The notes beneath the pieces were generated by a model that made no database searches, was not told where the DNA came from, and was given only the letters and a program-made list of their open reading frames with translations. This document shows, in pieces, positions 34,157 to 42,193 of a stretch of 52,621 nt of DNA. How positions within the stretch are numbered: position 1 is the stretch's first letter; every line of letters starts with the position of its first letter. The position numbers and the translations under genes were made by a program. Source of the stretch: Bdellovibrionales bacterium (GTDB lineage Bacteria > Myxococcota > XYA12-FULL-58-9 > SYDY01). The stretch is taken from contig SYDY01000104.1 in assembly GCA_005801425.1 (NCBI GenBank), positions 1 to 52,621 on the forward strand. The letters are read 5' to 3'.

Positions 34157-34376
34157 CTTTCAGAACCGGATCCCAACCGCCGCAACACCATGGGTGACAC
34201 CGCAACAAACGTTTAATAATAAGTTCAAACCCACGCCAACCATGGATATGCAGCGCATCGATCGCATAGGCAGAGCATGAGGGAGAAAATCGACACTGTC
34301 TCCCCAGCAAACCTGAGAGAGTCCATCGGTACAGATGGATCAAACCAATGCATGCGTACGTGATGGCGCGGCACAT
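34149..34376 (-). CDS. yidD: YidD membrane protein insertion efficiency factor
   Basis: This is a 75-residue amphipathic protein that supports YidC-dependent insertion. The family signature CRFSPSCSAYAIDAL is followed by RCHPWCCGGWDPV, giving the conserved cysteines. The ATG at 34376 lies 37 bases inside the end of rnpA in another frame, and the 3' end overlaps yidC by 8 bases, so all three genes are interlocked. Confidence 0.94.
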   Translation of the reverse strand: MCRAITYACIGLIHLYRWTLSGLLGRQCRFSPSCSAYAIDALHIHGWRGFELIIKRLLRCHPWCCGGWDPVLKDE

Positions 34377-34687
34377 CGTAAACCCGACAAAATATCATTT
34401 CGTAAATGCTCAAAAGAAGCCTTTGCCGCTTCTTCGTGCACAATAAAAACGTAGTCATGTCCTGGAAGCAGCCGTGTCCACTCCCCCCGAAGGATTTCCC
34501 TCATACGACGTCGAACACGGTTTCTAACCACCGCATTTCCAACTTTTTTTGTAATTGTGATCCCCACCCGAGTCGCCAATGTTTGCCCTGAGCGGACAAG
34601 AAGCAAAACAGTATCACGTCGTGCCCGTCTACACCCAAAACGCATCGCAACAAAGTCACGACGTTTTTTTAGCATGACAAGCGCCAT
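34340..34687 (-). CDS. rnpA: Ribonuclease P protein component
   Basis: This is the 115-residue basic protein subunit of RNase P, which matures tRNA 5' ends. The RNR motif is visible in VGNAVVRNRVRRRMREILR, and the N-terminal LKKRRDFVAM matches the family. ATG 34687 has AAGG 7 bases upstream, overlapping the rpmH stop. ATG 34675 is an alternative. The C-terminal 12 codons overlap yidD. Confidence 0.95.
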   Translation of the reverse strand: MALVMLKKRRDFVAMRFGCRRARRDTVLLLVRSGQTLATRVGITITKKVGNAVVRNRVRRRMREILRGEWTRLLPGHDYVFIVHEEAAKASFEHLRNDILSGLRCAAPSRTHALV

Positions 34688-34948: not shown

Positions 34949-35021
34949 GTGCTGCAAAAAATGTTTCTAGCGAAGAGTGGCTGGAATGATCGTTTTTTCC
35001 ACAAAAAGAAGAATAATTGCC

Positions 35022-35123
35022 TGTGCATAACTCTGTGCACAACCCTGTGCGCAACATGTGTACAAGGCTGTGCACAAAGTTACACACAACATTGCACACA
35101 ACTAACACACAGGTTTACGCACA
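35022..35123. repeat. Array of nine phased DnaA-box-like 9-mers, five in one orientation then four in the other
   Basis: Units start at 35022 TGTGCATAA, 35034 TGTGCACAA, 35046 TGTGCGCAA, 35057 TGTGTACAA, 35069 TGTGCACAA, then inverted at 35080 TTACACACA, 35092 TTGCACACA, 35103 TAACACACA, 35115 TTACGCACA. Steps are 12, 12, 11, 12, 11, 12, 11 and 12 bp. Read on one strand the family is TTRYNCACA with two exceptions (TTATGCACA at unit 1 and TAACACACA at unit 8); all nine keep CACA. Most differ from TTWTNCACA at positions 3 or 4, as expected for lower-affinity sites filled cooperatively. Confidence 0.85.
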
Positions 35124-35373
35124 GGGGAAACTCTTTTAAATACAAAGACTTAAGCATGTTATCCACAGAAAAACAGCACTCCTATTATTATAGATCAGAT
35201 CTTAATACTATAAGAATAAGAAAGAGCCGTGGGTAAGAAAAGCAAGCGAGATGATGTCTTGTGTTCGGGCACAGACGTCGCTAATAAGTCGACAACAACG
35301 TCATCTGCGTTTTTGTGCTTTTGAGTCGGATCGAATACTCACAGGGTGCGTTTAGCTATCTGGAGACGAAAAC

Positions 35374-36492
35374 GTGCGTTCTATTATTCAAACAGCCGAA
35401 TTAATACGTGCCCTTTTCCGCATCCAAGGTATTGCGGAACGTAAAACGAATCGACCCGTTTTGTCACATGTGCTACTGCAAGCCTCGTCTTTAGAGGGTG
35501 GCCTCGTCGTGCGTGCAACAAATCTGGAAGTTGCTATTGGTGGGACCTATCCAGCCGAAATACTCGAAGAAGGCTCAGTTCTCGTACAAGCCAAGCAGCT
35601 TTATGAAATCATAAAGTCGCTTTCAGCTAGCCAAGTTGAGCTTGTGGGCAAAGCTAATCATTGGCTAGAGATCTCTGCAGGATCAAGTCAATTTAAGCTT
35701 GTGGGTATGCCTTCGCAGGACTTTCCTGAAATGGCCGAAGACGCCTCAGTGGAAATGTTTTCTGTGCCTTCTGATAAGTTTTTAGGGATGGTCGAGCGTA
35801 CGCAATTTTGCGTTTCAACCGACGAGAACCGTGCGAGTCTCGGTGGGATTTATTGCGAAAGAACAACAGCAAACAGCATGCGCATGGTTTCTACTGACGG
35901 CCATCGTCTTGCGGTTGCAACATGCACGTTTGACAGAGATATAAAAACGCCTCTTGGTGTGCTCGTACCACGCAAGGCCCTTCAGGAACTTAAACGTATT
36001 GTTGCAGATCCTAGCGCCTCTCATGATGATATTGAGATTGGATTTTCATCAACTGCAGGGCATTTTAAAATAGGGAATGTGACGCTTATTACGCGTTTGA
36101 TTGATGCAAAATTTCCTGATTACAAACAGGTTATTCCAGAACAAAGTAAGCACGAAATAAAGCTTTCGCGCGTTGTTGTTAGTGATGCCTTAAAACGCGT
36201 TTCTTCGCTATCTCAGGGCAAAACGCATGGCGTCCGTTTTGTTTTTGAACCAGGAAAGCTAGAAATTGTTGCTGAAGATCCTGAGTTTGGTGTTGCCCGT
36301 GAAACCATCATGTTAGACGACTGCCCTTTAGAACTTTCAATAGCATTTAACGCACGATATATCATGGACGTTCTTGGCTTGATCACCGAACAGGGTTTTG
36401 TTCTCTGCGTATCAGATGATTTGTCACCCACAATCATTCGTCCTATCGAAGATCAGGGTTTTACAGCCGTTGTTATGCCCATGAGACTGTAA
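35374..36492 (+). CDS. dnaN: DNA polymerase III beta sliding clamp
   Basis: The 372-residue beta clamp forms the ring that tethers DNA polymerase III. The N-terminus RSIIQTAELIRALFRIQGI, the DGHRLAVAT motif in the second domain and the C-terminal VVMPMRL are all typical. The start is GTG 35374 with GGAGA (35362-35366) 7 bases upstream. It is the first gene to the right of the origin; in many bacteria dnaA would precede it. recF follows after 9 bases. Confidence 0.97.
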   Translation: MRSIIQTAELIRALFRIQGIAERKTNRPVLSHVLLQASSLEGGLVVRATNLEVAIGGTYPAEILEEGSVLVQAKQLYEIIKSLSASQVELVGKANHWLEISAGSSQFKLVGMPSQDFPEMAEDASVEMFSVPSDKFLGMVERTQFCVSTDENRASLGGIYCERTTANSMRMVSTDGHRLAVATCTFDRDIKTPLGVLVPRKALQELKRIVADPSASHDDIEIGFSSTAGHFKIGNVTLITRLIDAKFPDYKQVIPEQSKHEIKLSRVVVSDALKRVSSLSQGKTHGVRFVFEPGKLEIVAEDPEFGVARETIMLDDCPLELSIAFNARYIMDVLGLITEQGFVLCVSDDLSPTIIRPIEDQGFTAVVMPMRL

Positions 36493-36501
36493 AGGACTTC
36501 T

Positions 36502-37614
36502 GTGTTTCTCGAATCACTATCGCTTCATAATTTCCGTAATATTGCGCAACTCGAATTGACTATTCCTGCACAGGGGGTCCTTCTGCAGGGGAATAACGGA
36601 CAAGGAAAAACAAGCATCCTTGAGGCTTTGTACCTTTGTGCGACAGGGCGTTCCTTTAGAACACAGCGTGTTCATGAAATGATACGCCACGGAGAATCGG
36701 CAGCACGCATAAGTGCACGGTTTATAAGGCGTGGTGTTCGTCACGTTATCGATGTTTCTTTGCAGCCCAAGCACCGGGTTATCACCGTGGACGATAAGCG
36801 ATTGCCTGCAACATCATCATTGCTACAAATGGTTAATATTGTAGCATTCTTTCCGGATGATTTGTGCATCACGAAAGGCCCAGCCGAAGGGCGGCGCCAT
36901 TTTGTCGATCGTATGGTTGCAAATATACAATCCGATTTTCTCATGTCTTCGGTTAACTATGCGAAGGTTTTAAAATCCCGTAATCACGTACTTCGTCAAA
37001 GTCAGAATGGGATTGATCCCGTATTGATGAAAACATTGGATGAACAACTGATTGGCTATGGAGAAAAAATTCATACTTATCGGTCGCAAACACTCAAAGC
37101 ATTGTTGCCCCTGGCCATTGAAATTTACACTGAAATAAGTATGGGAAAAGATCCTACTCCGAACATGGAACTAACCGCGGGATTCCTCCTTTCTTCTGAA
37201 TACATGAGTGATTATAAAACAAATTTTAAAAAAACTTTGGAAAAGGACCTTCCCCGTGATCGAGCGCTGGGAATGACATCATCAGGGCCTCACAGGGCTG
37301 ATCTGTTCATCTCTTTGGGGAATTATAACAGTCGCCAATATGCGTCTCAGGGACAGCAACGTGCCCTGGTTTTGGCGCTTAAACTTGCTGAAGTACATAT
37401 GTTACGGTCTATTTTAGAAAGTCCACCCATTTTATTGTTGGACGATGTTTCTAGCGAATTGGATTCCGAACGTTGTTCGGTTCTTTTTAACGACCTGGTT
37501 CAAAGTGAGGCACAGGTATGGTTGAGCACTACAGGGGCTGCAAAGCTTCCCGAAAACCCGAAGATGAGTAAATACGAAGTCACGGATGGACATGTAAACC
37601 TGCTTAACAGTTGA
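36502..37614 (+). CDS. recF: RecF recombination mediator
   Basis: This 370-residue SMC-like ATPase loads RecA at single-strand gaps through RecOR. Walker A is GNNGQGKTS near residues 30-38. The signature region ASQGQQRALVLALKLAE precedes Walker B ILLLDDVSSELD, and SSGPHRADL is present. GTG 36502 is preceded by AGGA. It is co-transcribed with dnaN. Confidence 0.96.
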   Translation: MFLESLSLHNFRNIAQLELTIPAQGVLLQGNNGQGKTSILEALYLCATGRSFRTQRVHEMIRHGESAARISARFIRRGVRHVIDVSLQPKHRVITVDDKRLPATSSLLQMVNIVAFFPDDLCITKGPAEGRRHFVDRMVANIQSDFLMSSVNYAKVLKSRNHVLRQSQNGIDPVLMKTLDEQLIGYGEKIHTYRSQTLKALLPLAIEIYTEISMGKDPTPNMELTAGFLLSSEYMSDYKTNFKKTLEKDLPRDRALGMTSSGPHRADLFISLGNYNSRQYASQGQQRALVLALKLAEVHMLRSILESPPILLLDDVSSELDSERCSVLFNDLVQSEAQVWLSTTGAAKLPENPKMSKYEVTDGHVNLLNS

Positions 37615-37734: not shown

Positions 37735-40569
<2,835 letters not shown>

Positions 40570-40595
40570 AACGTGTTTCTTTCACTTTGAGTTTT

Positions 40596-41327
40596 ATGAT
40601 GCCCACGCGTCCTATTTTATCTGTTGAATCGGTGTCTGCACGTGGCATCACAAGTATTGATTTTTCTGTGCACGCAGGTCAATGCGTAGGACTTATCGGA
40701 TGCAACGGTAGCGGGAAAACCTCTGTGTTACATGCAGTGTCTGGGCTACTTCCCCTTGATAAGGGATGTGTCTTTTACGGTCAATCCAAGATCAGTGATC
40801 TTAGTCATAAAGAACGTGCAGCGTATCGATTTTTGGTGATGCAAGATCATTCGATTTATCATGAGCTGACGGTTAAAGAATATTTGATGCTCGCATCTTT
40901 TTTTGACCAATCGTGGTTTCAACAATTTTCGGGTAAGATTAAAAACGATTTACTTGAACAATTTGAGCTGGATACGTTTTTGAACCGATCCTGCGCTTCA
41001 CTGTCATTGGGAGAAAAACAGCGAACAATGCTTTGTCAGGCTTTTGTGTCAAAGCGATCTTTGGTTTTGCTGGATGAGCCGACCAATGCACTTGATGTTC
41101 GCCAAACACGTCGATTCGGGCATTTTTTAAATGCCGATCGACGTGAAAACAATACAGCTATTGTTCTTGTTTCGCATGATATGCACTTTGTACAAAATGT
41201 TTGTGATGTTGTGTTGGTTTTAGATCGTGGCGTGATGATCGCTTGTGGCACACCCCAAGAAATTTTAGCAATGCCGTTGGTACAAAATACGCTTGAAATA
41301 TGGGTTACATCTGATTCATCAAATTAA
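40596..41327 (+). CDS. Orphan ABC transporter ATP-binding protein
   Basis: This 243-residue ABC ATPase has Walker A GCNGSGKTS, a Q-loop in VMQDHSIYHELTVKEYL, the signature LSLGEKQR, Walker B LVLLDEPTNALDV and the switch His in VSHDMHF. Domain order and length are those of an importer or small exporter ATPase. There is no permease or binding protein next to it, so its partner is unknown. Tandem ATGs occur at 40596 and 40599; the frame opens at TTG 40587. It overlaps the convergent beta-barrel gene by 4 bases. Confidence 0.9.
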   Translation: MMPTRPILSVESVSARGITSIDFSVHAGQCVGLIGCNGSGKTSVLHAVSGLLPLDKGCVFYGQSKISDLSHKERAAYRFLVMQDHSIYHELTVKEYLMLASFFDQSWFQQFSGKIKNDLLEQFELDTFLNRSCASLSLGEKQRTMLCQAFVSKRSLVLLDEPTNALDVRQTRRFGHFLNADRRENNTAIVLVSHDMHFVQNVCDVVLVLDRGVMIACGTPQEILAMPLVQNTLEIWVTSDSSN

Positions 41328-42193
41328 AGAAAAAACTTAATGGTTGCTATGAGCTCTCTGGTTAGATTGCCATTGATAGATTGTTGATATGCCATATCTA
41401 TGGCGCCAATTTCATTCACAAAAGCAACGCCACCCGTGATTTTGTTTTGAAATGATATTTCGAGGATATTGTGTTGTTGTGGAAGCCAAGCACCGATGTA
41501 GCCGCCGCGAATAGCCAACAGTCCAAAGAGGAAGACTTCGATGCCGCCATGGTAAGTCATATCTTTAGACTTAAAATCGAATCCATTGGCAACAACATCC
41601 GCTGCGAACAAGACAGGGCCGAGAGTGAGTGATGTGGCGAAGCCCATACGATATGTGGATAAAGGATTGTCATGACTGCGAACGATGTTGTGCAATGTGA
41701 TACCAAGTGCAAAAGCAGAGCCAGGCTTGAAGATAAAACCGAGATCTGTTGTGAAAAAATCCCGTGTAATTTTTTCTCCAGTGGGATCTGTATATATACC
41801 ATGAACATATTTTAGGGTTGATCCCATACTAAGCATGGGGGCCACCTGGTAGGCACTCCCCAGGTAGACGCGATGATTCGTATCTCCATTTTGTCTAGAG
41901 ACAGTATAGCCAAGACCTCCTGCCACAGGGGTCGATTTTGAGTCCACGACAGAGAGATGGTAATGACTGGGTAAGTCTTCAAAACCATGGGCATAGGCAA
42001 GATCGATCGAGTAACGTGCGGCGCTTGTAAGGCCAGCAGGATTGAGGACAAGTGTATCATTGCTCGTTCCAACAGCCCTATGGGCGTTGCCCATTGCCAT
42101 CGATCGTGCTCCAGCAAACTCGTGAAAACGCGGATCCTCGTCAATGGACAGCGGTCCAGCCGCTATCAGAGTCAAGGCAATGGCTACGAACAT
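41324..42193 (-). CDS. Outer-membrane beta-barrel protein (PorV/FadL-like)
   Basis: This 289-residue protein has a short signal peptide (MFVAIALTLIAAGPLS). The N-terminal motif GARSMAMGNAHRAVGTSNDTLVLNPAGL is shared by PorV/PorQ and FadL-type barrels. Alternating hydrophobic strands follow, and the final strand ends in aromatic and hydrophobic residues (IATIKFFL). The ligand is unknown. It is divergent from tyrS, with 95 bases between the two starts. Confidence 0.75.
   Translation of the reverse strand: MFVAIALTLIAAGPLSIDEDPRFHEFAGARSMAMGNAHRAVGTSNDTLVLNPAGLTSAARYSIDLAYAHGFEDLPSHYHLSVVDSKSTPVAGGLGYTVSRQNGDTNHRVYLGSAYQVAPMLSMGSTLKYVHGIYTDPTGEKITRDFFTTDLGFIFKPGSAFALGITLHNIVRSHDNPLSTYRMGFATSLTLGPVLFAADVVANGFDFKSKDMTYHGGIEVFLFGLLAIRGGYIGAWLPQQHNILEISFQNKITGGVAFVNEIGAIDMAYQQSINGNLTRELIATIKFFL

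Follow-up and report, generated by a model that had tools for sequence, protein, structure and literature searches.

We analysed a 52.6-kb stretch of DNA (52,621 nucleotides, referred to here as the window) in which an array of DnaA boxes lies between rpmH and dnaN, the gene order being rnpA-rpmH-array-dnaN-recF-gyrB. The minus strand carries rnpA (RNase P protein; 34340-34687), which flanks the putative origin, was identified from the ORF list and has homologues upstream of dnaA in relatives, and rpmH (ribosomal protein L34; 34697-34849), with 56-80% identity by tblastn to rpmH of same-order relatives. The plus strand carries dnaN (beta clamp; 35374-36492; Pfam PF00712, PF02767, and PF02768), recF (36502-37614), and gyrB (37738-40158), the latter two being ORFs identified from gene order and their translations. 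Within the window, taken from a genome of 121 contigs, the sign of GC skew switches at the array: values of about -0.14 extend to 35 kb and are followed by about +0.05.

Nine phased DnaA boxes between rpmH and dnaN

We found nine DnaA-box-like 9-mers in unbroken succession at 35022-35123, five on the minus strand followed by four on the plus strand. The minus-strand arm (35022-35077), distal to the DNA unwinding element (DUE) described below, has boxes at 35022 (TTATGCACA), 35034 (TTGTGCACA), 35046 (TTGCGCACA), 35057 (TTGTACACA), and 35069 (again TTGTGCACA), in steps of 12, 12, 11, and 12 bp. The DUE-proximal plus-strand arm (35080-35123) has boxes at 35080 (TTACACACA), 35092 (TTGCACACA), 35103 (TAACACACA), and 35115 (TTACGCACA), in steps of 12, 11, and 12 bp. 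At the turn of the mirror (35078-35079) 2 bp separate the two back-to-back boxes, giving a step of 11 bp across the turn and a mean start-to-start step of 11.6 bp; inside each arm, neighboring boxes are 2 or 3 bp apart. The original prediction of nine boxes at 11- or 12-bp spacing without a break, five facing one way and then four the other, held at every position. It had also described two flanking boxes of full consensus, which is true of the perfect plus-strand box at 35159-35167 (TTATCCACA), while the outlying plus-strand box at 34995-35003 (TTTTCCACA) carries one mismatch (8/9). The box at 35159 is the fifth directed at the DUE and is comparable to R1 of Escherichia coli; counting it, ten boxes are present, five facing the unwinding element and five facing away. 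Agreement with the consensus is best in the outer boxes (9/9 at 35159 and 8/9 at 35022) and is 7/9 in the central boxes.

Such a chain is not expected by chance. In local shuffles at orders 1, 2, and 3 (3000 each, 9000 trials), which kept up to 4-mer content and therefore also the excess of CACA/TGTG, the longest chain was 3 boxes vs the 9 observed, and the longest chain in 40 simulations of the whole window was likewise 3. Across the whole 3.38-Mb genome, spaced CACA pairs gave 30 matches, 5 of them inside the array, vs 9 in the reversed control, and this spaced-pair scan of the genome returned no second array of comparable length.

A predicted unwinding element beside the array

The least stable 50-mer of the entire window (rank 1 of 52,571) is at 35177-35226 and is the predicted DUE. 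Basal unwinding systems are defined by a DnaA box with at most two mismatches, a spacer of at most 16 bp, and at least three trios with a central A (PMC8287927). All of these were found here as the box TTATCCACA at 35159, a 14-bp spacer, and the DnaA-trio-like repeat CTATTATTA on the plus strand at 35182-35190, which reads as trios GAT-AAT-AAT on the complement. The top-scoring trio match in the window is on the minus strand and starts from a weak box at 35228-35236 (TTACCCACG), from which eight NTN triplets run back into the same DUE; we ranked this set as secondary because the plus-strand arrangement owns the perfect box. The minus-strand box and its triplets (35205-35236) form a possible second unwinding motif that would enter the DUE from the opposite side. 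In the gap between the plus-strand arm and the box at 35159, the best match to an IHF site is a weak plus-strand sequence at 35140-35152 (ATACAAAGACTTA, two mismatches to WATCARNNNNTTR), and the genome has three HU/IHF-family genes.

Our data indicate that the array is very probably the DnaA-oligomerization region (DOR) of the chromosome's oriC, working like the DOR of E. coli, given its position between rpmH and dnaN, the skew switch, the perfect TTATCCACA box, the trio-like repeats, and the least stable 50-mer. The sequence, skew switch, DUE, and gene order thus bear out the earlier suggestion of a mirror-symmetric, closely phased DnaA-box array at a probable replication origin. From these features we infer DnaA binding, its filling order, unwinding, helicase loading, and origin activity at the array.

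The mirror layout in relatives and the location of dnaA

Conservation of the spacing in related genomes had been named beforehand as a check of the prediction, and the outcome supports it. Using a generic DnaA-box matrix that was not trained on the window, we scored each of 27 dnaN-upstream regions of the phylum (probably Myxococcota), the window included, for four layouts: minus-arm/plus-arm, plus/minus, all-plus, and all-minus. The mirror layout, i.e., minus-arm/plus-arm, was the best of the four in 20 of the 27 regions, with z up to 13.8, although these counts are not independent because the species are related; counting against the oriC assignment, the other 7 regions do not favor the mirror layout and several more favor it weakly. 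Among same-order relatives the mirror z was 13.8 in L053, 12.2 in L081, 9.5 in L082, and 8.6 in L079, where the plus/minus layout scores slightly above it, and was weak (2.8 each) in L080 and in L083, the latter having other layouts that score higher. DNA regions upstream of alphaproteobacterial dnaN, which are not expected to be origins in that group, gave negative layout scores. By traceback, which placed some positions in relatives on poor boxes, the minus-arm steps are 12, 12, 11, and 12 bp in the window, L053, and L082, and 12, 12, 12, and 11 bp in L081. The first plus-strand box and the perfect or nearly perfect one preceding the trios are 79 bp apart in the window; in L053 they are 78 bp apart. 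A literature search by title brought up no description of a Myxococcota oriC array that stood out.

In the minus arm, the boxes at 35034 and 35069 come close to being palindromes (CTGTGCACAA) and are therefore readable on either strand, a point against the oriC assignment. Their orientation rests mainly on spacing and on comparison with relatives, where the aligned boxes are unambiguous (TTGTCCACA and TTCTCCACA) and support a minus-strand reading as the probable one.

Other arrangements occur in these relatives as well. L082 and L083 have dnaN and dnaA in divergent orientation, the boxes lying in between, and L061, from the same phylum, has a very different origin layout, with approximately two dozen TTTTCCACA-type boxes of mixed orientation spread over roughly 600 bp before dnaN.

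Also counting against assignment of the array to oriC, the linkage to dnaA that origins usually show is absent. In favor of the assignment, the genome does have a single intact dnaA, encoding ATPase and DNA-binding domains, which lies on contig C3 at about 40379-41860 (L052 8380-9861); judging from translations, RluA-like and GNAT-like genes lie upstream and another GNAT-like gene downstream. We considered a bipartite origin with a second part at dnaA and rejected it, as a search around dnaA on contig C3 found no DnaA-box cluster. Since the same-order relatives L053, L079, and L081 keep the order rpmH-dnaA-[array]-dnaN, with rnpA preceding rpmH in relatives, the simplest reading of the gene orders is that dnaA departed from the rpmH-dnaN cluster while the origin stayed and retained its layout. 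Simple misassembly is an unlikely cause of the relocation because the dnaA and array loci both lie inside contigs, although this is a single draft genome that has no close relatives. Retention of the layout after dnaA left would mean that the initiator gene and its target have become separated in nature. The relocated dnaA is without the upstream DnaA boxes seen in L053, L079, and L081, and on that basis its autoregulation may have been lost.

Comparison with known origins and a proposed mechanism

The layout had been thought unlike the well-studied models, a view that the comparison with E. coli overturns. The E. coli oriC consists of two oppositely oriented five-box arrays (PMC10316083, PMC4285127), the left DOR with five boxes in one orientation and the right DOR with five in the opposite one, forming two facing pentamers (PMC10316083). 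The four-layout score, with a central gap allowed, also selects the mirror layout for E. coli oriC (z 4.5). In the E. coli sequence that we retrieved, the sites that we take to be R1, R4, and R5M are at 358, 538, and 413; R1 points to the 13-mers at 301 and R4 points away, with an IHF-type sequence at 385 between R1 and R5M. Similar to the E. coli DOR (R1-R5M-tau2-I1-I2 / C3-C2-I3-C1-R4), the array described here, with 35159 counted, has two opposed sets of five boxes, of which the DUE-proximal arm faces the DUE and the other arm faces away, so that both origins have the same DUE polarity. Strong boxes lie outside and weaker, close-set boxes inside in both, and the gap from the strong box to its arm is also similar (44 bp start to start here and 55 bp for R1-R5M). 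The order from the DUE is as in E. coli: 35159, the gap, the DUE-facing arm, the turn, and the away-facing arm ending in TTATGCACA at 35022.

There are also differences. The array has neither a central R2-like box nor a central gap, its arms being 2 bp apart, and we therefore liken its working to that of the E. coli DOR without treating the two as one type throughout. It mixes 11- and 12-bp steps where E. coli has 2-bp gaps throughout, and every arrayed box is near consensus whereas those of E. coli are cryptic. No clear IHF site is seen here, the best match in the gap having two mismatches, and E. coli oriC lies at mnmG-mioC rather than at rpmH-dnaN. Binding assays are needed to detect the cryptic boxes of the two opposed arrays of E. 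coli. Here, in a phylum distant from that of E. coli, the same 5+5 plan can be read from the letters, and relatives have related spacing. Should binding be confirmed, bacteria would widely use opposed pentamers to open their origins, and the plan would not be peculiar to enterobacteria.

Three other systems share parts of this plan. With its perfect box, 14-bp spacer, and AT-rich DNA past three trio-like triplets that begin with GAT, the region resembles the basal unwinding system of the Bacillus subtilis type, except that only three trios are clear here and a second candidate set enters from the opposite direction. Bdellovibrio bacteriovorus oriC (rnpA-rpmH-dnaA-oriC-dnaN-recF-gyrB) has the same neighborhood, and its boxes adjoin a DUE with trios (PMC5124646), but the cluster around the array here is without dnaA. 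Thermotoga maritima oriC likewise has close-set boxes, including an inverted one, on which DnaA binds head to tail, with contacts best at a 2-bp gap between like-oriented boxes and at 4 bp for inverted ones (PMC10316083); unlike the array, it has only five boxes, one of them inverted, and no 5+5 symmetry.

We propose that DnaA would first occupy the strong outer boxes at 35159, 35022, and perhaps 34995. ATP-DnaA would next fill the weaker, close-spaced boxes cooperatively and head to tail, giving two opposed pentamers. The plus-strand pentamer (35080, 35092, 35103, 35115, and 35159) would aim at the AT-rich element and hand DnaA to the trio-like strand, leading to opening, and the minus-strand pentamer (35069 to 35022) would point away and probably aid loading of a second helicase. 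The genome encodes the helicase operator DciA, and helicase is probably loaded with it. Inward filling is the order that we favor because DnaA bound at R1 and R4 of E. coli donates to the nearest weak site so that the arrays fill inward (PMC6727663), because of the gap preferences of T. maritima (PMC10316083), and because neighboring boxes here lie 2 or 3 bp apart.

The original prediction had the filaments running the other way, as a new type of origin whose two DnaA filaments would extend outward, in opposite directions, from the central turn. In a form of this reading that would depart from E. coli, both filaments would be nucleated together at the turn, one then growing onto the unwinding element and the other away from it, and one point would set both forks. 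The gapless, back-to-back center without an R2-like box would suit such a start, and the sequence of the turn is similar in a same-order relative (TGTGGACAAAAGTTACCCACAA in L053, resembling TGTGCACAAAGTTACACACAA in the window). We nevertheless regard outward growth as improbable, given that the strongest boxes are outer rather than central and that E. coli arrays of the same polarity fill from outside to inside (PMC6727663).

It is very improbable that the array serves DnaA titration or regulation (datA/DARS-like, or controlling dnaN transcription) and is not the origin itself. Regulatory DnaA clusters also have weak boxes in close array, dnaA is elsewhere, and a separate cluster (G000:C19:1643-1695) could be a site of this kind. 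Sites of the datA/DARS type are box clusters away from the origin, whereas the array is at the skew switch beside the DUE, where the trio-like motif and origin gene order also converge; in addition, the spaced-pair pattern gives no comparably long array elsewhere in the genome and no box cluster accompanies dnaA. Slimmer still is the chance that the array binds another protein recognizing the palindrome TTGTGCACAA, as the two nearly palindromic boxes might suggest, since relatives have ordinary DnaA boxes at the aligned positions (TTGTCCACA, TTATCCACA, and TTCTCCACA, among others) and the location is that of an origin.

The separate cluster (L085 1643-1695) is upstream of a PspC-like ORF and consists of TTATCCACA, TTATCCACA, and TTATGCACA in one orientation, 12 and 11 bp apart, plus CGATCCACA. 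Its spacing is as in an arm of the origin array and its boxes are stronger, which suggests a possible DnaA reservoir or DnaA-regulated promoter.
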